IMG/VR virus record: IMGVR_UViG_3300020160_003144
Location: 1 to 26,523 of that record
DNA length: 26,523 nt
Origin: a virus
Strand: one strand, 5' to 3'
The translations under genes and the position numbers were made by a program. Shown here in pieces: positions 4,466-25,158 of the stretch. The notes beneath the pieces were generated by a model. That model was given only the letters and a program-made list of their open reading frames with translations, was not told where the DNA came from and searched no databases. Each line of letters opens with the position of its first letter. Position 1 is the first letter of the stretch.

Positions 4466-4507
4466 TCTGATTATTATTACGTAAAGTATATCTGAGTGTC
4501 AGTGATT

Positions 4508-6253
4508 ATGACTATAGAAAGCAAAGCTATAAAAATTTTGGAGGAATATCAGGGGGCAAACAATTACATCCTGAATCTAAAATCTAAACTAGAAAAAAAC
4601 CCAAAATTTTTTCCAACAAGGAGCCAGTGTGATTACATTTTTACAAATAAAGATGTTGTACCTAAGGTTGCTCGTAAATGGGTTCTTTTGGATTCTTACT
4701 TTGCTCAGAAGTTAGCTGATGAAAAATTCTTAATGACAATTCCTGAAAAAATTTGGATTGAAAAACTTTTATCTGAAACTGACAAGGCATATCACATATG
4801 GGGTAAATTTGGTGATTATCAGGAAATACACGACATATGGATACCTAAAGTCGCAATTATTAAAGACAATAAAGTTGAAATCGAAAAAATAGACTATTCT
4901 AAATACATACATAGACCTCCTTTAGAACATCAAAAAATTGCGGTAGAGTCTCTGTTAAAAAATAAAAAATTTATTTTAGCTGATGATATGGGATTGGGTA
5001 AAACAACATCAACCATTATTGCAGCGCTTGAAGCCGGCGCAAAGAAAATTTTAATTATTTGCCCAGCATCTTTGAAAATAAACTGGGAGAGAGAATTTTG
5101 GTTGTATTCAAACAAAAAAACTTTTGTTTGTGATGGTAAAAATTTTTCTGAAGATGCAGAAATATTGATTATGAATTATGACATCATCAAAAACTTTCAC
5201 GACCCTAAAGACAAAACAAATTCAAAAATTTTCAATTCAAATATTGATTTGGTAATCATAGATGAAGCTCACTACATTCAAAATGTTCAAGCCCAAAGAA
5301 CAAAATTAATCAATGATTTAGTTAAAAACGTTGAAAGGTTGTGGTTACTTACAGGAACACCAATGACCTCAAGACCAATTAATTATTTTAACCTTTTATC
5401 TTTGGTTGATTCACCTGTAGCGAAGAATTGGATGGCATACGTAGTTCGGTACTGTTCGGGATATCAATTCAAAGTAGGACCTCGGAAAGTGTGGAATGTT
5501 ATGGGAGCCTCCCATTTAGAAGAATTAAGAGATAGAACCTCAGCGACGGTACTAAGGCGATTAAAAGAAGACGTTTTGGATTTACCAGATAAAATTATTA
5601 CACCAGTTTACTTAAGATTAAAATCAAAAGTTTACGAAGAATTGATGGGAGATTATTTCAATTGGTATGAAAAAAACCCTGATGAAAGTAAAAACCTCTC
5701 TCTTCAGTTCACAAAATTAACACAAGTTAGACAAGTTCTTGCTGAAGAAAAAACATCTCACACAATCGAACTTGCCGAAAACATTATAGAACAGGGAAAA
5801 AAAGTTATCATTTTTTGTAATTTTACAAAATCTTTAGAAACAATATGTGAACATTTTGGTAAAGCAGCAGTTAGATTGGATGGTTCAATGTCCAAAATAC
5901 AAAGACAAGATTCTGTGGATAGATTCCAAGAAGATGAAAAAGTCAAAGTATTTGTAGGAAATATAAAAGCAGCCGGTGTTGGTATTACTTTAACCGCAGC
6001 TGAAGCTGTTATTATGAACGATTTGTCATTCCTACCATCAGACCACTCACAATCAGAAGACCGAGCATACCGTTACGGACAAAAAAATAATGTGTTAGTA
6101 TATTACCCGATTTTTGAAAATACAATCGAAGGTATTATCTACGATATATTAAATGCCAAGAAAAAAATTATTGGAACTGTGATGGGTGATATCCAACAAG
6201 ATGAGACAAATGTTGTTGAAGAAATTTTGAAACTAATTAACAAACAAAGATAA
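4508..6253 (+). CDS. SNF2-family DEAH helicase / DNA translocase
   Basis: This ATP-dependent DNA translocase of the SNF2 branch of superfamily 2 probably remodels replication forks or recombination intermediates, or displaces bound proteins. From the ATG at 4508 it has 581 residues; in-frame GTGs at 4496 and 4502 are possible earlier starts. Counting from 4496, motif I is DDMGLGKTTS (about 163-172), motif II DEAH (256-259), motif III TGTP (286-289), and motif VI QSEDRAYRYGQK (519-530), the SNF2 form of the arginine-finger motif. The first 130 residues form a phage-type N-terminal region with no recognised motif. The gene is divergent from the tail module and has no TATTTAT element in its leader, so it may be expressed at another time. 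Many large phages encode such an enzyme. It is not T4 UvsW, although the role could overlap. Confidence 0.9.
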   Translation: MTIESKAIKILEEYQGANNYILNLKSKLEKNPKFFPTRSQCDYIFTNKDVVPKVARKWVLLDSYFAQKLADEKFLMTIPEKIWIEKLLSETDKAYHIWGKFGDYQEIHDIWIPKVAIIKDNKVEIEKIDYSKYIHRPPLEHQKIAVESLLKNKKFILADDMGLGKTTSTIIAALEAGAKKILIICPASLKINWEREFWLYSNKKTFVCDGKNFSEDAEILIMNYDIIKNFHDPKDKTNSKIFNSNIDLVIIDEAHYIQNVQAQRTKLINDLVKNVERLWLLTGTPMTSRPINYFNLLSLVDSPVAKNWMAYVVRYCSGYQFKVGPRKVWNVMGASHLEELRDRTSATVLRRLKEDVLDLPDKIITPVYLRLKSKVYEELMGDYFNWYEKNPDESKNLSLQFTKLTQVRQVLAEEKTSHTIELAENIIEQGKKVIIFCNFTKSLETICEHFGKAAVRLDGSMSKIQRQDSVDRFQEDEKVKVFVGNIKAAGVGITLTAAEAVIMNDLSFLPSDHSQSEDRAYRYGQKNNVLVYYPIFENTIEGIIYDILNAKKKIIGTVMGDIQQDETNVVEEILKLINKQR

Positions 6254-6292: not shown

Positions 6293-7831
6293 ATGCAACA
6301 TCTACAAGAATCAATACAAAAAGTAGAGAAAGAGATTCTACAAGAAAAAAAGAAAGAAGAGGTGAAAGGTTTATTATCCGAAATGAAAAAAATCGGAATT
6401 GAAAAATTACCTTACTCGTATTCAGCCCTGAAAAGATTTATCGACCCAGAAACAATGAATGTTCATTATAACAAACATTACAAAGGGTACGTCAACAAAC
6501 TCAACAAATTAATTCAAAAAAGAAAAGGTGACGACGATTTAGAAAAGATTATTAGAAACATTTCTAGATTCCCAAAATCTGTTCGTAACAACGCTGGAGG
6601 GGCGTTCAACCACGCACTCTTTTGGAATATGTTGTCTCCTGAAGAGATTGAGATAGGTCCTGAAATGAAATCAAGAATTATCAAAGACTTCACCTCAATA
6701 GATAAATTCAAAAAAGAATTTTCCAAAATAGCAACCGAAAGATTTGGTTCTGGTTGGGTTTGGGTTGTTCTGACCAAAAAGGGGACACTCAAAATTATGT
6801 CGACACCGAATCAGGATAATCCGCTGATGAATGTAATTGAAGATGGGGGATTTCCTCTTTTAGGTTTGGACGTTTGGGAACACGCTTATTATTTGAAATA
6901 CAAAAACAGACGAGATGAATATATCAAAAACTTTTGGACAGTTGTAAACTGGAAATTTGTTGAGGATATGTACAAAATGAAAACCGAATCTAATCTGATT
7001 CAGGAACAATCTCTAAAACATTTGATTAATGAATCTAAGTCATCTTTTTGTACATCAGGGGAAAAAGAATTTTACAGGATGTTAATACAAAACAAAGCAA
7101 TAAAAAACATATATTCCAACGGTATAAGAAAAATTCTTAAAGACACATTCGAAAGTAATTGGAAACCTGCGACAAAAGATGAAATGTCAGGAATTTATGA
7201 ATTAGAAATATTTCCAAGTGATGAAAAAGGGAGGTCAATTATTAATAAGCTAGACACAAATTTTTCAGTTCTTTGTTTTTTTGTAAAAGATATGAATAGA
7301 GTTTTGAAATCACAAGATATAGAAGAACTCAATTTTTTCACAACTCCCGCAAATCAAGAAAAAGAAATAAAAAGAATGCTCAATTATATCGAAAAATATA
7401 GTAACAGGATTTTTGACCCAAAGAGTGCAATTTTCAAAAATATTTTTGATGTTCTAACAAAAAAACATCAAATAGGTGAAGACCGCGAAGATTATGCAAA
7501 AAAAATTATTTCGGTAAATTTACCCGAATCTGTTGTAAACAAAGTTGGTCGATTAGGGTCTAAAGAAGACGCATTCAAAAAAATTGATTTAGAAATCACG
7601 ATTGGTGGTAATACAAAAAAAGCACAAGTTAAAGGTTTTATGGAACTAATACCTTCAGAGGGTAAAGTTGTCGTAACAGGTGCTGGCGACACTGTAAAAT
7701 ACCCGAACATAGATTGGATGGTGTTTGTTAACTTACAACGAAAAAAAGTTGTGATTTTTGAAAACACTGGTAATGTTGTTATGGGTAATTACGTTTTTGA
7801 CGAAAACGCGATGATTTACAATTTAGGTTGA
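6293..7831 (+). CDS. Mn-type superoxide dismutase fused to an unrecognised C-terminal region (possible PD-(D/E)XK fold)
   Basis: Residues about 35-228 are a complete Fe/Mn superoxide dismutase (2 superoxide to O2 and H2O2). Metal ligands are visible at H58 (VHYNKHYKGYV), H107 (NNAGGAFNHALFW), D193 and H197 (DVWEHAYYLKY). G103 and Q174 (STPNQDNPL) are the residues typical of the Mn rather than the Fe enzyme. The usual family length is about 200 residues; this protein has 512. The first 34 residues are Lys/Glu-rich and helical. Residues about 230-512 match no family I recognise. Around 418-490, an acidic residue (D432), then QVK (445-447) and further strands resemble a PD-(D/E)XK nuclease core with Q in place of E, but this is weak. 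The gene lies between the helicase and a neck-protein gene and has a TATTTAT element. A virion-carried enzyme is possible. Confidence 0.85.
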   Translation: MQHLQESIQKVEKEILQEKKKEEVKGLLSEMKKIGIEKLPYSYSALKRFIDPETMNVHYNKHYKGYVNKLNKLIQKRKGDDDLEKIIRNISRFPKSVRNNAGGAFNHALFWNMLSPEEIEIGPEMKSRIIKDFTSIDKFKKEFSKIATERFGSGWVWVVLTKKGTLKIMSTPNQDNPLMNVIEDGGFPLLGLDVWEHAYYLKYKNRRDEYIKNFWTVVNWKFVEDMYKMKTESNLIQEQSLKHLINESKSSFCTSGEKEFYRMLIQNKAIKNIYSNGIRKILKDTFESNWKPATKDEMSGIYELEIFPSDEKGRSIINKLDTNFSVLCFFVKDMNRVLKSQDIEELNFFTTPANQEKEIKRMLNYIEKYSNRIFDPKSAIFKNIFDVLTKKHQIGEDREDYAKKIISVNLPESVVNKVGRLGSKEDAFKKIDLEITIGGNTKKAQVKGFMELIPSEGKVVVTGAGDTVKYPNIDWMVFVNLQRKKVVIFENTGNVVMGNYVFDENAMIYNLG

Positions 7832-7849: not shown

Positions 7850-8968
7850 ATGTCAGCAATACCTGAACCAGAAAGAAGTAAAATCTATACACGAATCAAA
7901 CACCAATTAGGTGCACCATTACGTAGTGTAGAATTGGAAGATGAAATGATGGATTCTCTGATGGAATTATCAATTCAAGATTACGAACAATATGTTTTAG
8001 ATTGGTTAATTGAATCTCAATGGGTTAACTTAGTTAACCTGAATATGAGTGAAAAGTCTGTCGCAAATGCTCTTATAACAAGAACATTTAACTTAGAAGA
8101 CCAATACTCTTACGCATATTCGAAAATTGTGGGTTTACAAACTGTAGGACCTTGGACATTGAAAAAAGATTATTTTATCTTAAGTGGTGGTGTTCAAACA
8201 TACGAAATCCCCGCAGGTCGTGAGGTTAACGAACTTCTATGGTTTTCCAACCAACCATTTCAAAATTTAGCTATTATGGGTACGACCGACTTTGGTTTTG
8301 GTGGTTTAGGATTAGGTGCCAATCAGGCTGGATTTGCACAATTTGGCAATACAGGTTCGTACTTTATGTTAAGTGGTTTTGATTATTTAATTAGATATCA
8401 AGAAGCCAATATTCTTAATAGAATATTGGGAGGTTCCCTTACATATAGAATTACAGGGTTACCCGATGGAAAAAGATTAGTTCACCTTTATAATACCCCT
8501 GGTGGTAGATTTAATTGGAATTCCTATTCAAGTTATGAGGGGAATGCTGTTTGGTATTGGTATTACGATGTTGATGGAGACAGTAGAAAATCTTGTCTTA
8601 GAGATAATCCCGATGTTATTAAATTACCATCCGATGTTCCAATTGAGGAACTTTCTTGGGAAGACTTAAATACACCCGCACAACAATGGGTTCGTAGGTG
8701 GTTCACCGCCTATTGTAAAGAAACTTTAGCAAGGGTTAGAGGAAAGTATTCGGGTAATCTAAAAACACCCGATTCTGAACTAATTATGGACTATACATCG
8801 TTAGCAACAGAATCTAAAGATGAAAAATCTAAATTAGAAGAAGAATTGAAATTGCGTCTCGAAAGACTTCGTCCTGAAAAACAAATGGAAAAAGAAGCAA
8901 TCATCGCAGAAAATCTTAACAAACAAATGAAATACAGAGCAATGCCTCGTCAAATCTACGTAATTTAA
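7850..8968 (+). CDS. Neck / head-tail connector protein, probable T4 gp13-like
   Basis: This protein of 372 residues is probably one of the proteins that join the filled head to the tail. The N-terminus (KIYTRIKHQLGAPLRSVELE, then an acidic helix) has the plan of connector proteins: a short helical start, then 'LG.P...VEL'. The middle is Gly/Phe/Tyr-rich (GFGGLGLGANQAGF). The C-terminal 100 residues contain RVRGKYSGNL, a long charged helix (about 312-350, SKLEEELKLRLERLRPE) and a basic end. These are features I associate with gp13-type neck proteins of marine T4-like phages, where an 'R.RGKY' segment precedes 'EG..EK..L.EEL'. It sits on the opposite strand from the gp14- and gp15-like genes, unlike T4. 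The virion role is likely; the exact name is tentative. Confidence 0.55.
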   Translation: MSAIPEPERSKIYTRIKHQLGAPLRSVELEDEMMDSLMELSIQDYEQYVLDWLIESQWVNLVNLNMSEKSVANALITRTFNLEDQYSYAYSKIVGLQTVGPWTLKKDYFILSGGVQTYEIPAGREVNELLWFSNQPFQNLAIMGTTDFGFGGLGLGANQAGFAQFGNTGSYFMLSGFDYLIRYQEANILNRILGGSLTYRITGLPDGKRLVHLYNTPGGRFNWNSYSSYEGNAVWYWYYDVDGDSRKSCLRDNPDVIKLPSDVPIEELSWEDLNTPAQQWVRRWFTAYCKETLARVRGKYSGNLKTPDSELIMDYTSLATESKDEKSKLEEELKLRLERLRPEKQMEKEAIIAENLNKQMKYRAMPRQIYVI

Positions 8969-12885: not shown

Positions 12886-12904
12886 ACATAGATAAATACT
12901 ATGT
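12886..12904 (-). promoter_or_regulatory. Start-site hairpin with TATTTAT loop
   Basis: In sense orientation, arms ACATAG and CTATGT (6 bp, perfect) flank the 7-base loop TATTTAT. The 3' arm ends at the base next to the ATG at 12885, and the 5' arm touches the stop codon of the upstream glycosyltransferase gene (12904-12906). The architecture matches the hairpin at 4446-4465 although the stem sequences differ, so the loop is the conserved part. Confidence 0.5.
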
Positions 12905-14580
12905 TATGACTCTTTTCTTAAATTAGCATCATAATGGTCAAACCTATTGTGTTCAGTTGGTGTTGCAAACAATAGTGCGGATTTTATATTTCCCTTTTTA
13001 CCTTCCTGATAAATGTAACTCATCCAAGTTTGTTCAAAAGGTCTCTCCCATTTAGTAGTTAGGAACATTTTTTCATTACCGTATTTTGTAACAACTTGAG
13101 GCCAATTACAATAGTATACTTCACCAATTCCAAATGATGTTCCTTCAAGAGTATGTACCCCGTTGAATTTGGTTCTCGGAGCATTAGGGTCAAGCCCTTG
13201 TACAGGTAAAGAATTTTTTTCTGGCCAAAATTCTTCTCTAACACTTTGTGGTACATTATACCAAGACCATTGAACTCCATTGTCACCAAAAAATTCTGAG
13301 TAATTCAATTTTAAAAAATCCAAAGAATAATTTTTAGTAATTCTCATAGATTTATCGTATAAGTTTTTAATCTTCCTAACAAATCCGTTTCTGCAAGAAA
13401 TATCTTCACCTACATAAAAAAACATATCATCCTCAAAAAACCAATAAAAATCAAAGGCGTGTTCTTTAGCGTGTTCAGCAATCCATTGTCTTCCTCCGCA
13501 AATCCCAAGGTTATCTTTTTTAATATGTTCAAATCCGTGTAGGGAACAAAGTTCAGAATATTTTTGGGTTGTGGTTAAATCAGATGAATTATCCAACAAA
13601 TATTTTTTTGGTTTTTCTAAAAAGTTTGAATCATATAGACTCATTGATTTTATTAAAGTTTCAAATTGATTTGGACTGTTAAATGTTATAACATAAAGTG
13701 CAGTGTTATTAACATCTAAATTTCTATATGAAACTTCACCCGCAATATTTTTTATTACACAAGTGTCATTTTTTGCATTTTCACAAAAAGTAGAAATTAA
13801 ACCATTTCCATCAATTTGGTGATAATCAAATAAGTCAGGGTGTCTATATAACATAATACTGAATAAAGACTCCTCAGTACCCATCAAATTATTGTTAAGG
13901 GTTTCACTTATTAAATTATAGTAAATTCCGTTAGCGTCCGATATCATACTTTTTAATCCCCCAAACAAACCACCTCTACAAACAAATTTTACATCTTGAC
14001 CAGCATAACTATTAATTCTTGGATATGTAAACCCGTGAATTTCAGTTTCAGCATCGTAAGGAAAAGCCACAAAACCGAACTTTGGAAATAGTTTATCAAA
14101 TTTATTTTGTATTTTATCGTGAGTAAAATAACCCCAATGTACAGTGTTGGTTATACCAGCATCAATCCAAAACATATGTGTTGAATCAAATTTGTCAAAA
14201 ATTCTAGCATCGTGAAGTAAAAACATTTTTGACATAACAAGGGGGTTGTACATATCCAATTTTGCTTGCGTTGATTCGGGTAACCAACCAGATTGACTGT
14301 ACCATTCGGGATTAGTTCTGATGTTTTGAATTTTATCATAAAATTCATTTTTAAACCAATCTTGATGTCTTGTTATAAATTGAGTGTTTTCATCATTTCT
14401 GTTTGGTTGAGAAAAAACAAAATCTTTTAATTCTTCATCACCAAAAATTATGAAATTACTTTCCGATTTTAAGAGTTCGGAAAATTTTTGTAAATAATGG
14501 TCGTACGAACGTGACCAACCTTCTGTTAATGCGTCCCGTCTAATATTCCAAAGACCAGTAACTAATGTTATTTTACTCAT
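12904..14580 (-). CDS. Two-domain glycosyltransferase: HtrL/YibB-like plus second GT-A domain
   Basis: This protein of 558 residues has two likely catalytic domains. Residues 1-265 look like the HtrL/YibB (WlaTC) family: SKITLVTGLWNIRRDAL at the start, NPLVMSKMFLLHDA (112-125), FWIDAG (137-142), GGLFGG (203-208) and TEESLFSIMLYRHPDLF (235-251). Residues about 294-550 look like a second GT-A fold: ALYVITFNSPNQFETLI, then LGICGGRQWIAEHA and a DXD-like FFEDD (381-385), the usual metal and nucleotide-sugar site. A bifunctional enzyme could add two sugars in turn. Its start overlaps the end of the preceding HtrL-like gene by eight bases, so the two are probably coupled in translation. Donor and acceptor are not readable from sequence. 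The neighbouring Thr-rich proteins or host surface glycans are candidate acceptors. Confidence 0.75.
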   Translation of the reverse strand: MSKITLVTGLWNIRRDALTEGWSRSYDHYLQKFSELLKSESNFIIFGDEELKDFVFSQPNRNDENTQFITRHQDWFKNEFYDKIQNIRTNPEWYSQSGWLPESTQAKLDMYNPLVMSKMFLLHDARIFDKFDSTHMFWIDAGITNTVHWGYFTHDKIQNKFDKLFPKFGFVAFPYDAETEIHGFTYPRINSYAGQDVKFVCRGGLFGGLKSMISDANGIYYNLISETLNNNLMGTEESLFSIMLYRHPDLFDYHQIDGNGLISTFCENAKNDTCVIKNIAGEVSYRNLDVNNTALYVITFNSPNQFETLIKSMSLYDSNFLEKPKKYLLDNSSDLTTTQKYSELCSLHGFEHIKKDNLGICGGRQWIAEHAKEHAFDFYWFFEDDMFFYVGEDISCRNGFVRKIKNLYDKSMRITKNYSLDFLKLNYSEFFGDNGVQWSWYNVPQSVREEFWPEKNSLPVQGLDPNAPRTKFNGVHTLEGTSFGIGEVYYCNWPQVVTKYGNEKMFLTTKWERPFEQTWMSYIYQEGKKGNIKSALLFATPTEHNRFDHYDANLRKES

Positions 14581-15454
14581 TTATATTGTTTAATTCTTCT
14601 AAAATTTTATAGAAACTTTTGTTTTGTTCAAAATAACTGTCGGGAGTTTCCTTTGGAGCGTTATCTCTGCACCACCAAGTTTCAAAATATTTGTGTTTAA
14701 AAAGTTCGGGATGATTGTAAAACATCAAGGTCATAAATAACTCTTCAGGAAAAGGTCTCTTATCAGTTTCGATAATCCTTTGAGAATAGTCTTCAAAAAG
14801 TGGTACTATTGTTTCCCACAACTGACGTTTACCACCAAACATTCCACCTATTACGTGTAACATTCTATCATAATTTGTATACCACTTTGGGTCAACTGTC
14901 TGTGACCAAAAATTTCTATCATTTTCTTTAGCAAAAACAACAAATTTGTTCTCTGAAAACTCACACAGATTTTTTAAAAATGTGTTATTAAATAAAGGAC
15001 TCTCATAAAACTGTCTCGGACCGTTAGGTTGTGAAAGATACTTGTTTGGTATTAACCCACTGTGAGAAAGACCTGCATCAATCCAAAAATAATAGTCGTA
15101 GGATTTATCTTCATCCCAAAACCAAGAAAATTTTTGATATTGTATTTCAAAACATCTATCACTTTTTTTAGCCTGTTCGTAGTCTTTGTATTGTTGTAGT
15201 AACGGTTGGTATTTTGTTTGTTTCAAATCGAATAAAACAAATTTTAACTTTGATTCAGAGATATTATTTTCTTCATAAAAATATTCTTTTAGTCTTACAA
15301 TTTCTGTTTCAGATGTATAACAAATGAAATCAGCATCAGTCATTTTTAAAAGTGATAGTAGTGAGTGCATATAATGACCAAATCTAGATGGTCTTCCACC
15401 CATTTCTGTACCCCATAGGTTACCATATATACAGGTAATAAATTTAATTTTCAT
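14573..15454 (-). CDS. HtrL/YibB-like glycosyltransferase
   Basis: This protein of 293 residues starts at the ATG at 15452-15454 (MKIKFITCIYGNLWGTEMGG). The frame is open further upstream, but that extension lies inside the GT25-like gene. FWIDAG, GGMFGG and PFPEELFMTLMFYNHPELF occur in the same order as in the first domain of the next protein, so the two are paralogous. Family members are bacterial proteins of the LPS and capsule type; few are characterised. It overlaps the upstream GT25-like gene by 11 bases and the downstream gene by eight, so it belongs to a tightly coupled set. The specific reaction is unknown. Confidence 0.7.
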   Translation of the reverse strand: MKIKFITCIYGNLWGTEMGGRPSRFGHYMHSLLSLLKMTDADFICYTSETEIVRLKEYFYEENNISESKLKFVLFDLKQTKYQPLLQQYKDYEQAKKSDRCFEIQYQKFSWFWDEDKSYDYYFWIDAGLSHSGLIPNKYLSQPNGPRQFYESPLFNNTFLKNLCEFSENKFVVFAKENDRNFWSQTVDPKWYTNYDRMLHVIGGMFGGKRQLWETIVPLFEDYSQRIIETDKRPFPEELFMTLMFYNHPELFKHKYFETWWCRDNAPKETPDSYFEQNKSFYKILEELNNINE

Positions 15455-16181
15455 ATATAAATTCCTTATGAATTCCTTGTTCTTTAAATTTTTTATTTTC
15501 ATTAATATTGAGAAACTCTGTGGGTATTTTTGTTCTCGAGTATAAATTCCAATTGTAAGTTTGTCCGTAAAAGTTATTACAAATTTGTTGTGACACATCT
15601 GACCAATCATTCCCTAATTGGGGGGCGATAGGTAGTATAGGACAATAACTTTGTTTTTTCTGATACACTTTTTGATATAGATAGTCATCAATAGCGTAAA
15701 ATCTCCAATTTTCATTTTCCTCAATTTTAATCACATCATCGTATGATGATTCGTGATATAAAATCATATTAGTTGCAAAAATTCCTCTATGTTCAGGACC
15801 TGCTGGTGGAAAATTAGAAATATCAATTAGTAGTGGACTATTTTCACTTCTATTGACAGGACGATTTAAAGTTGGCGCCAAATTGAATATTGCATATTCT
15901 AAATTTTTACATTCGTTTTCAATTTTGTTAAGAAGAGATTTTGCATAAGGCATAACTGTACAATCATCTTCAACAATCAAAACTTCTTTATAACCCCGTT
16001 CTTTTGCAATTTTTAAAATTGATGTATGAGAATACGTACAACCAACGTGACTATTTTTGTCAATTGCTTTGAACAACTCAAAATCCCAACCAAGATAGTC
16101 TAACTCCTTTTTTGTTGACTCTAATCTATCAGGTCTCCTTTCGAGATTGATAACAAACTTTGGTATATCTTTAAAAACCAT
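15444..16181 (-). CDS. GT25-like glycosyltransferase
   Basis: This protein of 245 residues has the marks of family GT25 (LPS β-galactosyltransferases and collagen galactosyltransferases): INLERRPDRLESTKKEL (about 11-27), GCTYSHTSILKIAKERGYKE (47-66) and VLIVEDDCTV (67-76), where EDD is the metal and donor site. The family usually transfers galactose from UDP-galactose. The start overlaps the last base of the GT60-like stop (TAATG), a sign of coupled translation. In eukaryotes GT25 enzymes modify hydroxylysine in collagen; in bacteria they modify lipooligosaccharide. Here it could extend a sugar laid down by the upstream enzyme, which is inference from gene order. Confidence 0.85.
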   Translation of the reverse strand: MVFKDIPKFVINLERRPDRLESTKKELDYLGWDFELFKAIDKNSHVGCTYSHTSILKIAKERGYKEVLIVEDDCTVMPYAKSLLNKIENECKNLEYAIFNLAPTLNRPVNRSENSPLLIDISNFPPAGPEHRGIFATNMILYHESSYDDVIKIEENENWRFYAIDDYLYQKVYQKKQSYCPILPIAPQLGNDWSDVSQQICNNFYGQTYNWNLYSRTKIPTEFLNINENKKFKEQGIHKEFIYEN

Positions 16182-17428
16182 TATAGATTTCCTGTTAATC
16201 TATCGCACCAACCTTTTGATGCTGAGTAAGGCCAAACAACCCAATATTTAGGTTTAACCGAAGTTTGGAATTCTCTCCAAATTTTACAATATCCATCAGG
16301 GTCTCTCATCATAGATGCAATTTCATTTTTATCGGCATCTTTTCTAAAAATAGTTTCATCATCAGGTCCGTGGAATGCAACTACCCAATAATCATAATCT
16401 TTTTCAGGAACAGAACTATATCCAACATCAATACAATGTTTAAATACTTGAGCAAAATCTAATTTCCAATCATCTTCGGAAACATAGTTGTAAGGATTTG
16501 GTGCATAATTTTTGTCCAAAGTGTATTGTTGTACGGCTCTTTTTTCGAACAACAATCCTGAGTATTTTTCGTAATCTCTTAAAGTTCTAATAGTTCCGAA
16601 ACCATAAGGACCATCGTGTCCCTCTTGTGTTTCTCCATCCATTCCAAACAACTTTCTATTTGTAAGGTGTGAATGATTGTTTTTATCTACCCATTGTTTG
16701 TCATCATCCCATTGTTTTGTTCTTCCCTTACGTGTATACTCGTGCCAAATCAATGGTTTGTGGGGATGAAATAAATCGTAACCCCAAGTGTATGCTCGAG
16801 CAGCAATTGAAATTTCTTCACCGTGAAAATAATACTCAGGGTTGTGTTGAACTTCTTTAGAAAATTCTCCAACGGTAAAACAGTAATGTGCTGAATAGAA
16901 TCTTGCGGTTACAGGTTCTTTCAATTCTTGCCAACCTGGAATTGTTTCGGGTAAAAAGAAAACAGCTCCCTCAGGGATGAATCTATCAAAAACCATTCTC
17001 CAAGGTTCCTGAACCCTACCTGTAGGGTCATTCTCAGGGTCAAATGATGAAACATATCCCGTTAACAAAGGTTTAGAGTGTCCTTTTTTCTGAAGTTGTT
17101 TAATCATCTTAATCATTTCGTCATCCCAATTAGGTGCGAAACGCATATGAGAGTCTATTTGCAAAGTATACTCTTCATTTTCGTAAAGTTGTTGTGTTAA
17201 ATTTCTTGCCCAACAAACACCTTTAGATTCTTCGTAAGGAATATCTAAAACTCTAAATCTTTTATCTTTTGAAAACTCATCTAAGTTGTCAAAACCATCA
17301 TCTTTTTGAAATTGTCTCGCAATACCAAATCTTAAATTTTTTGGCCTTTTAGCATTTTCCAACATATTTTTGATGGTTGGAACTAATTCAGGGTCTCTGT
17401 AGGAAGCTATCTGTACAAATATTTTCAT
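16181..17428 (-). CDS. GT60-like polypeptide GlcNAc-transferase homologue
   Basis: This protein of 415 residues matches the GlcNAc-transferase family of Skp1 hydroxyproline GlcNAc-transferase and trypanosome mucin O-GlcNAc-transferase (CAZy GT60). Visible motifs: IFVQIASYRDPELVPTIKNM (3-22), GVCWARNLTQQLY (70-82), TLQIDSHMRFAPNWD (88-102, with DSH in place of DXD), YFHGEEISIAARAYTWGYD (200-218) and WHEYTR (228-233). Residues about 310-415 are an extra C-terminal region not seen in the core family. The eukaryotic relatives transfer GlcNAc from UDP-GlcNAc to hydroxyproline or threonine. This is the first gene of a four-gene block and starts 23 bases after an intrinsic terminator that follows the Thr/Pro-repeat genes. 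The family call is good; substrate is inferred. Confidence 0.85.
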   Translation of the reverse strand: MKIFVQIASYRDPELVPTIKNMLENAKRPKNLRFGIARQFQKDDGFDNLDEFSKDKRFRVLDIPYEESKGVCWARNLTQQLYENEEYTLQIDSHMRFAPNWDDEMIKMIKQLQKKGHSKPLLTGYVSSFDPENDPTGRVQEPWRMVFDRFIPEGAVFFLPETIPGWQELKEPVTARFYSAHYCFTVGEFSKEVQHNPEYYFHGEEISIAARAYTWGYDLFHPHKPLIWHEYTRKGRTKQWDDDKQWVDKNNHSHLTNRKLFGMDGETQEGHDGPYGFGTIRTLRDYEKYSGLLFEKRAVQQYTLDKNYAPNPYNYVSEDDWKLDFAQVFKHCIDVGYSSVPEKDYDYWVVAFHGPDDETIFRKDADKNEIASMMRDPDGYCKIWREFQTSVKPKYWVVWPYSASKGWCDRLTGNL

Positions 17429-17502: not shown

Positions 17503-18741
17503 TTAACAAGGTACAGACGAAGAAATTTCACCACTACCTCCTGTGACTTCATAAGCAAAAACTCCATTGGAATAGAAACCATTAACCACAGGAATTGAAG
17601 TCGCAATGTCTTGATAAAGGAAGTCTCCGATATTTGGACCTACTGGTGTATTCAATGGTGCATAAACGCTACTTGGGGCAGTTGCGTAATCAACACAAGC
17701 GTCATTTGATGTTGCTCCTGAGCCTAAAGTATATTCCCAATGGTTTCTTGTTGGTGTTGGAGTTTGAGTTGTAGTTGGTGTTTGAGTTTGAGTATTTGTT
17801 TGTGTTGGAGTGTTAGTTACTGTATTTGTTGGAGTAGGTGTGTTTGTAGAGGTATTAGTTGGTGTTTGAGTATTTGTTGTAGTATTAGTTGGAGTTGGGG
17901 TGTTTGTAGAAGTATTAGTTGGTGTCTGAGTATTCGTTGCAGTATTTGTTGGTGTGTTAGTTGGTGTAGGTGTATTAGTTGGTGTAGGTGTCAATGTTGG
18001 ACACAAAATATAATCAACAACTAATCCATTCGAATCTAATTCTACAACAACATTATTATACTCATAGAAACCTGTCATATTGATTGTTACAGGTCCTACA
18101 GCGTTATTGTAGAAATATAGGTTTTCATCAAAGTTAATATCATTACCATAAATTGTTGATGAACCAAATAGTTCAGAACAAGCTTGCAATTCAGTTGCTC
18201 CTGAGAATCCTGCAAACGCATATCTAACTAAATTTGTTGGACTTGGTGTTTGAGTTTGTGTTGAAGTGTTTGTTGGTGTTGGTGTATTTGTACCCGTGTT
18301 AGTCGGTGTTACAGAGCTTGTATTAGTTGGCGTTACTGTACTTGTATTTGTCGGTGTTACCGTGCTAGTGTTTGTAGGGGTTGGTGTTGGTGTTGATGTT
18401 AAAGTTGTGGTTGTAGTTGGTGTTTGTGTATTTGTAGGGGTTGGAGTATTTGTATTAGTTGTGGTTGTAGTATTTGTAGGTGTAACAGTTGGTGATGGTG
18501 TAAAGGATGGTGTTGGGGTGTTTGAAGATGTTGGGGTTACGGGCGGAAATACCCCATAATCGACAATCGTGAAATTATCATATAAAGCCGCTTGGAAAGT
18601 TCCATTAACCAACCAAATGTTTCTTACTTGATTTGGTTCAAGTACAATATCGTACTCCCACATATTATTTGAACACTCCTGATATGAAAACACCAAGATA
18701 CCTGAAGTGTTATTAGTCAAAACATATTTTCTACACGCCAT
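17503..18741 (-). CDS. Mucin-like Thr/Pro-repeat virion protein with three globular modules
   Basis: This protein of 412 residues is probably a fibre, adhesin or head/tail decoration protein. Globular modules lie at 1-66, 171-247 and 333-412. They are joined by two long Thr/Pro/Asn linkers (67-170 and 248-332) made of variants of TPTNT and TPTPTNTST. The second and third modules are related to each other: both have 'SGAT...AC......SS..Y', then LY, GFY and a final Cys. No signal peptide or membrane segment is visible, so it is probably assembled into the virion rather than secreted. The start follows a TATTTAT element, and an intrinsic terminator follows the stop. The linkers are dense in potential O-glycosylation threonines, and glycosyltransferase genes follow directly. 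The host receptor or other role is not readable. Confidence 0.75.
   Translation of the reverse strand: MACRKYVLTNNTSGILVFSYQECSNNMWEYDIVLEPNQVRNIWLVNGTFQAALYDNFTIVDYGVFPPVTPTSSNTPTPSFTPSPTVTPTNTTTTTNTNTPTPTNTQTPTTTTTLTSTPTPTPTNTSTVTPTNTSTVTPTNTSSVTPTNTGTNTPTPTNTSTQTQTPSPTNLVRYAFAGFSGATELQACSELFGSSTIYGNDINFDENLYFYNNAVGPVTINMTGFYEYNNVVVELDSNGLVVDYILCPTLTPTPTNTPTPTNTPTNTATNTQTPTNTSTNTPTPTNTTTNTQTPTNTSTNTPTPTNTVTNTPTQTNTQTQTPTTTQTPTPTRNHWEYTLGSGATSNDACVDYATAPSSVYAPLNTPVGPNIGDFLYQDIATSIPVVNGFYSNGVFAYEVTGGSGEISSSVPC
17746..18000 (-). repeat. Thr/Pro/Asn-coding tandem repeat, linker 2
   Basis: Imperfect tandem units coding TPTNT/TPTPTNT, residues 248-332 of the gene at 17503-18741. The plus strand is nearly all G and T. 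Units differ at third codon positions, so selection is on the protein rather than recent DNA copying, although slippage could change linker length. Confidence 0.9.
18232..18543 (-). repeat. Thr/Pro/Asn-coding tandem repeat, linker 1
   Basis: Residues 67-170 of the same protein. Includes three near-identical 24-base units coding variants of TSTVTPTN (around residues 124-147) and more degenerate flanks. Confidence 0.9.
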
Positions 18742-18837: not shown

Positions 18838-21303
18838 TTAACTTGTAGGAGTAGGAGTTACAGTTTGTGTTGGCGTTGGAGTTGGCGTAGGTGTTTTAGT
18901 GTTTGTTGGGGTTACGGTTTGGGTTGGTGTTACAGTTTTGGTTGGAGTTTGTGTTCTCGTAGCCGTGGCCGTAGGAGTCATTGCAAATTCACAAGGGAAA
19001 CTTTGAGCTTCAATATAAATTGCAAAGTCATATAGGAATGTAACATTTGTAAATGTCATCGTACCTGACCCAATAGTTTCTATCTCTTGACAGAAATAAT
19101 AACCCAAAGAATCGTGGAAACCTATTGAGTTACCTAACAGACCTGTCTCATAACCAATTACCATTGTGTAAGTACCAAATTGATTCGTTTGGAACAAACC
19201 ACTATATCCTGTGTCGATTGGGAAATCAGTGCCAGAAACAAATTGAATACTTGCGGTATTGAACGTTAGACTTGTAATTGTCATTCCGTTGGCATTGTTG
19301 AACAACTGAATATCTTGGAATATCAAGTTTGGTGTTCTTGTAACGGTAGGTGTGTTTGTTGCGGTTGGTGTAATCGTTGCAGTATTTGTAGGTGTTGGAG
19401 TGCTAGTTCTCGTAGGCGTTGGTGTTAAATAAACAACTGGTACAATCGCACCACAATTGTAACAATCTGGGTCAATTAGATTGTATCTTGTCTTCAATAA
19501 ATTAAAGTTGTGTTTAATCATCGAAGCATCTAAAGGTTCAGTGTACATTCTAAATGCGCTGATATCCCCAATAAAACTTCCACCAAAAATTTCTTCAAGT
19601 TTGATATTAGTTGTCAGACCTGAATAAACTGTGTGAGTTAAATCCTCAGTAGTTAAGCATTCAGGGTCTTGTTGGTAAACAATATCCAAAACATCTTCAG
19701 GACATCCACCCGAAAAAGTCAAATTATCTTTAAGTCCTTGTGTTCCGCCACCTAAAGAAATGTTAAACGGCACACCTACCTGTTTTTCTTTATAAGTGTC
19801 AAGTGGTCTACAAACAATTTCCTCGAAATCATCAACAGTCATATAAATCCTACCGTTGATAAAAACTTTCAATTTACCTAATCTATATTCTTTTTGTTGA
19901 ATCCAATAATCAGAAATACCAACATTGATTGTTGTTACTGGTTTGTCTTTGGGGTCGTGTGTTATTGGAGGAATGACCAAACTGACACTATTGTTTGCTG
20001 GTGTGGCAGTATAAATTGTTTCAACAGTCTGACCATTTCCACCAAGACTATATTGGTCTTTACAGTCCAAATAGTTATCTCTTTGGAACACAACGTCAAC
20101 CTGAACCCAATGTTCATTTTGTACATAAGTTGTGCCCGAACAAAAATCAAAAATACCTTTTGTTGAACACCATTCAATTACAGTTGTTCCTGTTACAAAT
20201 GTTGTTCCCGTATCACAAGTACCTGTAGTTACGCAACTTCCTGTAACAAGAAATTCTTTTACACATACACGGGGATTTCCCGTATCTCCACTTAACCTAA
20301 CAGACATTGCGTTTGACACTCCGTCCCATAATGGGTCCAATTCAGGATACTTGGCAAAAACTGTACAATTACACGCACAACCACAATTACAACTTTGAGA
20401 TGTCCCACCTGATTGTTGATAAACGTGAATACATTGGGATGAACCTGTATATCCCGTGGTATGACAAGCACAAGTTTTCATACAACTTAACCCTTCAGTA
20501 ACACGTGTATAACCCGAGTCACTTGAGGGATGACCATCAGGATAGTGATAAAATTTATTTTCGGCTCTCGTACCCAAATAAAAAAAAGTTCCTTTGTTAT
20601 TTGGATATCGATTATTAAGACCAACGTTTGTATCTCCTGTCCAACGATATTTTAATAAGAATTCTGCAGTCCAACCCAAATCTTGTCTCACAGGCCATAC
20701 CTCGTAGTCATATCCTTCCAATTTCCAAAACCCTTGAAAGAATCCCCCTTGAAGAGTTGCAATTGTACCAACGTTTCCTGGTTCGTAATTCCAAGTGATT
20801 GGATAGTTGTATGAATCATCATTCCACAATCTGTTTGCCCCTGTAGTATTTCCCGAAATAGGATGCATTTTGAATCTTCTGTCGTATTTGTATCTATTGT
20901 AGGTTTCAGCCGATGAAGTGTATAAACCTGTAGTTGCAGTAATTGAAACACCAGACATAACTGTTGTCAGTTGGTTATCAATACCCGTTAACCCTACATC
21001 ACAAATAGTATGAGCACAAACACAAAAGTTTGGGTCAATATCTGTTGGATTGTAATAATTTTCTGAAACAATTGTCTGATAATCAAAATTATCATAGTTT
21101 GGTGCAACAGTTGTTCCTGTAGAATTAAAATCGAATTTAAAAGGCATCCTATTACCATCCTCCTCAGCAATCAAAAGTGGTGAGAAAATTACTTCCTCGT
21201 GGTAATCTTTTTCATCTGAAGCTAAACAAAAATCCGTGACCTGATTGAAGGGTATCAATCCGAGTCTACGGTAGTTGTACTGGTTAATATTTTGATATGC
21301 CAT
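18838..21303 (-). CDS. Large fibre-like virion protein: LamG-like domain with Thr/Pro linkers
   Basis: This protein of 821 residues is a probable tail fibre or adhesin. Residues about 180-605 look like a concanavalin A/LamG-like β-sandwich: GFFQGFWKLEGYDYEVW, WTAEFLLKYRW, LGKLKVFINGRIYMTVDDFE (476-494) and GDISAFRMYTEPLDASMIKH (579-598) are the usual strand-and-'R.Y...L' pattern. A Cys-rich insert lies at 274-313, with alternating cysteines (CNCGCACNC, 305-313). A Thr/Pro linker (626-659) leads to a β-rich module (660-775), and the protein ends in a Thr/Pro tail (776-821) that stops without a closing domain. LamG-like domains in phage fibres usually bind glycans. A TATTTAT element lies nine bases before the ATG. 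It is the first gene of the minus-strand block. Confidence 0.75.
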   Translation of the reverse strand: MAYQNINQYNYRRLGLIPFNQVTDFCLASDEKDYHEEVIFSPLLIAEEDGNRMPFKFDFNSTGTTVAPNYDNFDYQTIVSENYYNPTDIDPNFCVCAHTICDVGLTGIDNQLTTVMSGVSITATTGLYTSSAETYNRYKYDRRFKMHPISGNTTGANRLWNDDSYNYPITWNYEPGNVGTIATLQGGFFQGFWKLEGYDYEVWPVRQDLGWTAEFLLKYRWTGDTNVGLNNRYPNNKGTFFYLGTRAENKFYHYPDGHPSSDSGYTRVTEGLSCMKTCACHTTGYTGSSQCIHVYQQSGGTSQSCNCGCACNCTVFAKYPELDPLWDGVSNAMSVRLSGDTGNPRVCVKEFLVTGSCVTTGTCDTGTTFVTGTTVIEWCSTKGIFDFCSGTTYVQNEHWVQVDVVFQRDNYLDCKDQYSLGGNGQTVETIYTATPANNSVSLVIPPITHDPKDKPVTTINVGISDYWIQQKEYRLGKLKVFINGRIYMTVDDFEEIVCRPLDTYKEKQVGVPFNISLGGGTQGLKDNLTFSGGCPEDVLDIVYQQDPECLTTEDLTHTVYSGLTTNIKLEEIFGGSFIGDISAFRMYTEPLDASMIKHNFNLLKTRYNLIDPDCYNCGAIVPVVYLTPTPTRTSTPTPTNTATITPTATNTPTVTRTPNLIFQDIQLFNNANGMTITSLTFNTASIQFVSGTDFPIDTGYSGLFQTNQFGTYTMVIGYETGLLGNSIGFHDSLGYYFCQEIETIGSGTMTFTNVTFLYDFAIYIEAQSFPCEFAMTPTATATRTQTPTKTVTPTQTVTPTNTKTPTPTPTPTQTVTPTPTS
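18841..18978 (-). repeat. Thr/Pro-coding repeat at the C-terminus of the fibre-like protein
   Basis: Residues 776-821, variants of TPTQTVTPT and TPTPTPT, ending at the stop codon. It is unusual for such a linker to be the end of a protein, since in the neighbouring gene each one connects folded modules. Confidence 0.85.
19327..19428 (-). repeat. Thr/Pro-coding repeat, internal linker of the fibre-like protein
   Basis: Residues 626-659, variants of TPTPTRT and TATITPTATN, joining the LamG-like domain to the next module. Confidence 0.85.
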
Positions 21304-23943: not shown

Positions 23944-25158
23944 ATGTCAAAAATCAATGTATTATGTATTCCATCCGACCGTTCAGGTGTTGGTAAATTT
24001 CGTTCAGTAGAACCTCACGTTTTTTTACAACAGAAATACCCTGAAGATTTTTTTGTCGAGATAGATTACCAACCACCATTTGACAATTTAGATTTCTATA
24101 AAAAATATCAAATTGTACATTTCCATAGAAGTATCAGTCCAAATTTCGAAGCATCTTACGAACTTGTTGGGAAGTTAAATAAAATGGGTATTATCACAAT
24201 TTGTGATATCGATGATTATTGGGCACCGACAAAAGACCATCCTATTCACGACATTATTATGTATCATAAAATCAACGAGAAAATTGTTGAGAGTCTAAGA
24301 GGTGCACAATATATCACAACAACCACAAAAGTTTTTGCTGACGAAATTAAAAAAATTAATAAAAACGTTATCGTTTTTCCAAACGCAATCAATCCCCAAG
24401 AACCACAGTTTAAAGAGATTACAGAAGAATCTGATAAAGTCAGGATTGGATGGTTGGGAGGTTCTTCACATATTGCCGACTTAAAATTGTTAGACAAGTC
24501 ATTTAATAAATTAATTCATCTTAAGGATAAAACACAATACGTACTTTGTGGTTTTGACACTCGTGGAACTATCACTGAAATTAACTCTGCGACAGGAGAA
24601 CAAAATCAAAGACCAATTAAACCTGAAGAATCGGTTTGGGCTCGTTATGAGGAAATCTTTACACAAAACTATAAAACAATTTCTGATGAGTTCAAATCCA
24701 AACTAATGAAATTTGAACAATTGGACTATCCTGAGTTTGCTGACCAACCATATAGAAGAGTTTGGACTTTACCTGTAACATCTTACGCTAAGAACTATTC
24801 TAAATTTGACGTTTCTTTAGCTCCAATCAAAAACCATATGTTTAATAGAATGAAGTCACAACTAAAAGTTATTGAGGCAGGATTTTACAAAAAAGCAATA
24901 GTTGCTTCCAAAATTGGTCCATATACCATAGATTTGAAACATTGTTTGGACAAAGGACAATTTATTAACGGCAATGCTATGTTAGTTGATGAATTTGATA
25001 ATGTTCACGGTTGGGCAAAATATTTGGAAAAATTAATCAAAAATCCTAATTTGGTTAAAGATATGGGTGAAAGATTATATGAGACCGTAAAGGACCAATA
25101 TGATTTGAATAACGTAACAAAAGAACGTGCTGAGTTTTACAAAAGTTTAATTAAATAA
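23944..25158 (+). CDS. GT-B fold glycosyltransferase, GT4-like
   Basis: This protein of 404 residues looks like a GT-B glycosyltransferase. The N-terminal half has MSKINVLCIPSDRSGVGKFR and an IVHFHRSISPN turn; the C-terminal half has VRIGWLGGSSHIADLKLLDK (about 166-185), a typical 'I.W.GG..H..DL' donor-domain start, and NRMKSQLKVIEAGFYKKAIV (about 301-320), the 'K..E....g.p.v.S' donor-binding loop with KVIEAG. The donor and acceptor are unknown. The gene is separated from the minus-strand glycosyltransferase block but could serve the same product. It is followed after one base by the exonuclease gene. A role in altering host surface or phage glycans is inference. Confidence 0.75.
   Translation: MSKINVLCIPSDRSGVGKFRSVEPHVFLQQKYPEDFFVEIDYQPPFDNLDFYKKYQIVHFHRSISPNFEASYELVGKLNKMGIITICDIDDYWAPTKDHPIHDIIMYHKINEKIVESLRGAQYITTTTKVFADEIKKINKNVIVFPNAINPQEPQFKEITEESDKVRIGWLGGSSHIADLKLLDKSFNKLIHLKDKTQYVLCGFDTRGTITEINSATGEQNQRPIKPEESVWARYEEIFTQNYKTISDEFKSKLMKFEQLDYPEFADQPYRRVWTLPVTSYAKNYSKFDVSLAPIKNHMFNRMKSQLKVIEAGFYKKAIVASKIGPYTIDLKHCLDKGQFINGNAMLVDEFDNVHGWAKYLEKLIKNPNLVKDMGERLYETVKDQYDLNNVTKERAEFYKSLIK

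Follow-up and report, generated by a model that had tools for sequence, protein, structure and literature searches.

Why should a phage gene placed between a helicase and a neck protein join a superoxide dismutase (SOD) to a second, longer region in one chain? The question arises in a stretch of 26,523 nucleotides, called the window here, from the IMG/VR virus record IMGVR_UViG_3300020160_003144. An earlier note, made from the letters alone, had described the gene as an SOD domain fused to a region of unknown nature beside a neck-protein gene, and had raised the possibility of an enzyme that is packaged and processed. The neck-protein gene does adjoin, by a weak profile match, and the layout of the locus is collected in Table 1. 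Elsewhere in the window, two large proteins with long TPTPTNT-type repeats (17503-18741 and 18838-21303) are probable fibres or adhesins. A glycosyltransferase gene cluster occupies 12904-17428, and its member at 12904-14580 has an HtrL_YibB domain followed by a weak match to a TET-associated glycosyltransferase; another glycosyltransferase lies at 23944-25158.

Table 1. Features of the SOD-nuclease locus, in window coordinates; G001 is a 171-kb relative, and fractions refer to non-redundant homologues.
Feature	Position	Strand	Basis
TATTTATA, late-promoter-like element, 24 bases 5' of the start codon	6269..6276	+	Sense-strand enrichment in G001
Whole ORF, 512 aa: leader, Mn-type SOD, linker and predicted PD-(D/E)XK nuclease	6293..7831	+	Full-length homologues in viral contigs
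N-terminal leader, residues 1-30, last three L28-S29-E30, then M31	6293..6382	+	E30 50/50; low pLDDT
Fe/Mn superoxide dismutase domain, Mn type, residues 31-234 (Pfam 36-225)	6383..6994	+	Pfam, PDB relatives, invariant residues
Linker, residues 235-247, tandem (L/I)xE sites	6995..7033	+	E247 50/50; low pLDDT
Predicted C-terminal nuclease, residues 248-512: helical half about 248-375, PD-(D/E)XK core about 390-512	7034..7828	+	AF2, Foldseek
E399, predicted catalytic Glu, in a long helix	7487..7489	+	50/50; SOD-less forms too
D432, predicted metal-binding Asp	7586..7588	+	50/50
Q445-V446-K447, (D/E/Q)xK strand motif	7625..7633	+	Q445 and K447 50/50
SNF2-type DNA helicase, neighbour	4496..6253	+	Pfam SNF2-rel_dom E 4e-27; order same in relatives
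Head-tail adaptor (neck) protein, neighbour	7850..8968	+	PHROG 211 E 2e-10, weak; order same in SOD-containing and SOD-less relatives

The Pfam profiles Sod_Fe_N (residues 36-115, E 5e-22) and Sod_Fe_C (residues 124-225, E 4e-40) both scored over their cut-offs, and a PDB search returned Mn/Fe SODs as the closest solved structures (3tjt, E 5e-59). The metal ligands H58, H107, D193 and H197 and the Mn-type Gly/Gln pair, G103 and Q174, which the earlier note had reported as kept, were found identical in 50 of 50 non-redundant homologues, and the same holds for the gateway residues H62/Y66 and for W155, W157 and E196. Since all these residues are invariant, the domain is unlike a disabled SOD, in which the full set would not be expected, and the prediction that this part should be active fits its active-looking sequence. 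By both Pfam domains, the ligands and the Gly/Gln pair, the domain is classified as an intact member of the Fe/Mn SOD family, of the Mn type; what sets it apart from that family is the leader on one side and the nuclease domain on the other. A metal preference for Mn is suggested by G103 and Q174, by analogy alone. The remark that phage-encoded SODs are uncommon applies to isolates, in which a few standalone genes occur in Pseudomonas and Vibrio jumbo phages, but not to uncultured Far-T4 phages, in which the fusion is common. The SODs of Callisto (PA5oct-like group) and Vibrio phage 2.275.O are standalone genes of about 180-190 aa. The best INPHARED SOD matches, filed as Staphylococcus, Enterococcus and Salmonella phages, are ordinary-looking bacterial SODs, probably from contaminated or mis-filed records, and were excluded; host contamination is likely for OR850012, OR844989, OR846594 and similar phage-named records. 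Also set aside was the SOD of the freshwater record MW462191, a standalone gene amid bacterial-looking metabolic genes.

The C-terminal region had no usable sequence match in Pfam, PHROGs, PDB or INPHARED, but its fold is recognizable. Matches to FliG_N, ACT_phage and MC4, weak and differing between homologues, were rejected, as was a match of 12 of 35 members to PHROG 14585 (best E 2e-5), itself without known function. An AlphaFold2 model built from 35 homologues (pLDDT 89.7, pTM 0.83) and a Foldseek search refuted the idea of a featureless region: the second half matched I-Ssp6803I (2ost) with probability 1.00 and E 1e-4, and further PDB folds were those of archaeal Hjc resolvases and the SPARDA nuclease (DREN). 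E399, D432, Q445 and K447 are invariant in the 50 homologues and in SOD-less forms of the gene; in the model, D432 starts a strand and Q445-x-K447 lies on the next. The catalytic set of the SPARDA nuclease, D41, Q60 and K62, has the same D/Q-x-K arrangement (PMC12205087). Because the modelled fold, the invariant E/D/QxK residues and the SPARDA parallel coincide, we assign the region to the PD-(D/E)XK nucleases, as a sequence family not described before that has an additional helical half. The core fold and the D...QxK residue set are those of I-Ssp6803I, Hjc and the SPARDA DREN; the conserved helical half before the core, and the absence of a detectable Pfam or PDB sequence match, set it apart from them. 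No significant sequence match to a described PD-(D/E)XK family was found in Pfam, PDB or the named PHROGs, a point of supporting weight only in so diverse a superfamily. A pattern scan of the bacterial and archaeal genome collection found the nuclease domain neither in a prophage nor elsewhere in a host genome. The BFVD entry A0A8D9CCA0 (uncultured marine phage, 1113 aa) contains, judged by fold, this nuclease domain (TM 0.84) and is possibly a larger polyprotein with other cargo.

What would connect the two enzymes to the virus particle is the sequence around the SOD. The T4 prohead protease gp21 cleaves after L/I-X-E (PMC9026906), and the earlier note had seen a likeness to such sites in LKHLINES at the domain junction. 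This stretch indeed lies at residues 241-248 and the likeness is conserved family-wide on both SOD borders, but a second site, at residues 28-30, had been missed. E30 and E247 are each present in 50 of 50 non-redundant homologues. At P3, Leu and Ile occur 27 and 23 times at the first site and 34 and 16 times at the second (I245-N246-E247, then S248), and P2 takes 10 and 8 residue types, respectively. A further family site at 235-237 has Glu at 237 in 48/50 and lies one residue on in the window protein, as I236-Q237-E238. Of the 512 columns, nine hold a near-invariant Glu. Three of these (30, 237 and 247) belong to an (L/I)xE whose middle residue varies freely; the only other near-invariant Glu in such a context is the catalytic SOD Glu196, where the middle residue is an invariant Trp. 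The motif is short and occurs ten times in the window protein; being so prone to chance, it leaves the border sites to stand out by conservation and position alone. In the full-length model, pLDDT falls below 50 only at residues 1-9, 14-43 and 233-249, and because the conserved sites at the SOD borders fall in these sole segments, this was counted for processing.

A matching protease was found in related phages: gp21 scored above cut-off in 7 of 14 long related contigs, with the same catalytic His and Ser as in T4, and gp23 was detected in 9 of the 14; these searches concern relatives, as the 26.5-kb window does not cover the head-gene region. The N-terminus of gp23 in the relatives reads ...NQASYLINE/A (the slash marks a predicted cut), resembling LINE/S of the SOD-nuclease protein. 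LINE/A is a putative maturation site, placed by motif; the automatic alignment to T4 gapped that stretch. T4 gp23 is cut after a Glu, at what is by motif the corresponding position. The conserved (L/I)xE sites on both borders of the SOD thus suggest packing into the virus particle and splitting there. As a separate observation, different ORFs of G001 (L181-L189; 105382+, 125705+ and 126638+) and of a further contig, G007 (L190-L194; 59753+), have a common leader like MKKxxxLTESDLxxIIxRVIxEQ, ending in (L/I/M)xE; it may direct further packaged proteins to the capsid or mark them for processing. An N-terminus of the form MK[IV]LI[ST]E[SN]... is repeated on unrelated small ORFs (L187, G001 126045+; L190, G007 6094- and 6543-).

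The timing of expression is compatible with a structural role. The upstream element that the earlier note had seen as common to this gene and structural genes is TATTTATA, which also precedes tail, scaffold and portal ORFs. In G001 it stands upstream of 23 of 168 ORFs in the sense orientation, against 5 antisense and 2.7 expected, and the counterpart gene there has it at -25. Together with the downstream neck gene, the element points to late expression of the SOD-nuclease gene. The motif is directional, late-promoter-like and found before many ORFs in the window, G001 and G007; T4 uses TATAAATA instead.

We consider it fairly probable that the product of this Far-T4 phage gene is a polyprotein, made late and processed in the prohead, which loses its leader and yields a free SOD and a free nuclease. 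The 512-aa precursor would be made late, and its leader of about 30 residues would take it into the prohead core, like the capsid-targeting propeptides of T4 internal proteins. A gp21-type maturation protease would then cut after the (L/I)xE sites that flank the SOD, removing the leader and leaving a free Mn-SOD (about residues 31-235/247) and a separate PD-(D/E)XK nuclease (248-512). The SOD would remain with the DNA, where it would guard the packaged genome from superoxide, or else it would pass into the host at injection and act in the newly infected cell; protection of this sort has been proposed for the virion SOD of chlorovirus PBCV-1 (PMC7019647). The nuclease would most likely process phage DNA at head filling, by debranching of the Hjc or endonuclease VII kind, with co-injection as the alternative. 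We infer packaging, cleavage, injection and both enzymatic activities from the features described above. In T4, N-terminal propeptides direct internal proteins to the head, and the capsid-targeting sequence packages and delivers fused EcoRI and staphylococcal nucleases (PMC9026906), so a packaged nuclease would be feasible here. On the other side, an active nuclease in the head could be a hazard to the phage's own DNA, which counts against the model.

The history of the locus bears on how far this account can be taken. The gene is placed between the SNF2-type helicase and the neck gene in both of the long relatives that were read completely, with the SOD present in one and absent in the other. 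SOD-less loci numbered 13 in the first nuclease scan, with more in the next, and on the nuclease-domain tree well-supported branches make it necessary to assume three changes of SOD state; the SOD was lost about three times, with the nuclease retained. In L222/L223 the deletion left a scar consisting of the leader, SINE/MKKIEIEKL (the first SOD residues) and then IISE/GKS, so that both sites are kept; it is in frame, was confirmed in two long contigs, and no SOD was found elsewhere in either. The SOD-less L112 group keeps a leader of about 30 residues and one LxE before the nuclease. In one SOD-less subclade, the leader is very short and the site has decayed in several members (L126 STE, L201 PTE, L212 LIQ), with the nuclease intact; a shortened leader, a lost LxE and an intact nuclease were noted for L158 as well as for these three. 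The nuclease in that subclade would thus have no need of processing, and because its function does not depend on processing everywhere, the packaging model as a whole is not put higher than stated above. Among 15 long contigs, each has one copy of the nuclease and 10 have the SOD; as these contigs were picked via the nuclease or the fusion, the 15/15 is a statement on copy number and not on universality in the phage group. Judged from these comparisons, it is the nuclease that stays constant in the gene, and not the SOD.

This constancy would also be expected if the nuclease were a Holliday-junction or branch resolver that acts in the infected cell at the packaging motor and replaces T4 endonuclease VII, with the SOD as a passenger and virion entry unneeded. 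The Hjc-like fold, the single copy per contig and the persistence of SOD-less forms with decayed sites are in its favour. So is the distribution of endonuclease VII, which was detected in the T4 control (E 4e-23) and in none of eight Far-T4 contigs above cut-off, although endonuclease VII is the resolvase family that was searched for there; in T4, the enzyme associates with packaging proteins (PMC10893049). The 512-aa protein itself had no Pfam match to the Endonuclease_7 domain (T4 endonuclease VII, gp49). T4 gp4 (head closure) was rejected as a counterpart, the relatives having no credible homologue. Against a resolvase confined to the cell, the top fold match is a homing endonuclease and the fold alone does not give the substrate, and the two invariant gp21-type sites around the SOD would be left unexplained. 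We regard this explanation as unlikely, yet deserving of attention. Within the packaging model, the Hjc-like fold, endonuclease VII below cut-off in relatives and the tie of the T4 enzyme to packaging proteins are the reasons why we lean, by analogy, towards DNA processing at packaging as the role of the nuclease.

More doubtful is a bifunctional enzyme of the ordinary intracellular kind, in which an auxiliary SOD expressed late is joined to a nuclease and the product is never packaged or cut; the LxE motifs would then be structural or accidental. Several phages have standalone SOD genes, which can act as auxiliary genes, and the ten copies in this one protein illustrate how common LxE is by chance. 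However, Glu and Leu/Ile are invariant amid variable neighbours at the two domain borders only, and the border sites survive in the deletion scar. That the fusion is an artefact, two adjacent genes joined by sequencing or assembly error, can be dismissed as practically impossible, as no support for it was found and independent contigs rule it out: every one of the 267 SOD loci that could be tested, drawn from many metagenomes, has SOD and nuclease in one ORF (two more are truncated within it), among relatives 50-100% identical, which also upholds the fusion as first reported.

The preferred reading, a packaged and processed precursor, concerns a widespread gene. Scans of IMG/VR with the whole protein found 483 relatives; with the nuclease they found at least 399 and with the SOD at least 540, and the fusion is present in hundreds of uncultured Far-T4 contigs. 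By their T4-type gp23 and gp21, the phages of this group are classified as Far-T4-like; their major capsid protein shares no more than 41-45% identity with the closest public phage records. Far-T4 phages are almost uncultured. They are common in lakes and seas (PMC4360716), and Far-T4 studies predict Bacteroidetes hosts, with superoxide absent from both accounts (PMC4360716, PMC7198788). No description of the SOD-nuclease fusion was found in the literature searched. The UniProt entry A0A6J5L953, named 'superoxide dismutase' (uncultured Caudovirales phage, 501 aa), superposes on the nuclease model with TM 0.87 and is, by its length and automatic name, probably the same fusion; its presence in the structure library means that such a sequence is public, though undescribed in that literature.

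Several packaged viral proteins offer comparisons. With the T4 internal proteins and Alt, the SOD-nuclease protein shares a leader ending in L/I-X-E, as in the internal-protein propeptides, a late-type signal and gp21 in related phages; the leader here is longer, the chain holds two folded enzymes with sites flanking the first, and its place in the virion is predicted. The chlorovirus PBCV-1 has a late Cu/Zn SOD that is packaged in the virion and, according to the excerpted text of PMC7019647, is thought to lower early superoxide. That is likewise a late viral SOD, though packaging is only predicted here; it is of the unrelated Cu/Zn type and from an algal virus, and the same excerpt mentions neither a fused nuclease nor processing sites. 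Polyvalent phage proteins combine disparate enzymatic domains in one chain and are predicted to be packaged and injected (PMC5512222). The SOD and nuclease make a comparable combination, but processing of polyvalent proteins is attributed to metallopeptidase domains rather than gp21 sites, and the term 'superoxide' is absent from that work (PMC5512222).

Together, our results leave us evenly divided on whether, in Far-T4 phages, a single precursor brings both the antioxidant enzyme and the nuclease into the particle, is split by the head-maturation protease and has its products delivered with the DNA. If so, this would be a phage-delivered superoxide defence at infection, or a capsid-held antioxidant suited to sunlit waters, and, next to that of the chloroviruses, a second type of viral SOD carried in virions. 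Preparation for oxidative chemistry would then begin in the particle itself and would not have to wait for gene expression. The nuclease persists in forms with and without the SOD, which points to a lasting function in this phage group, one absent from the family databases.
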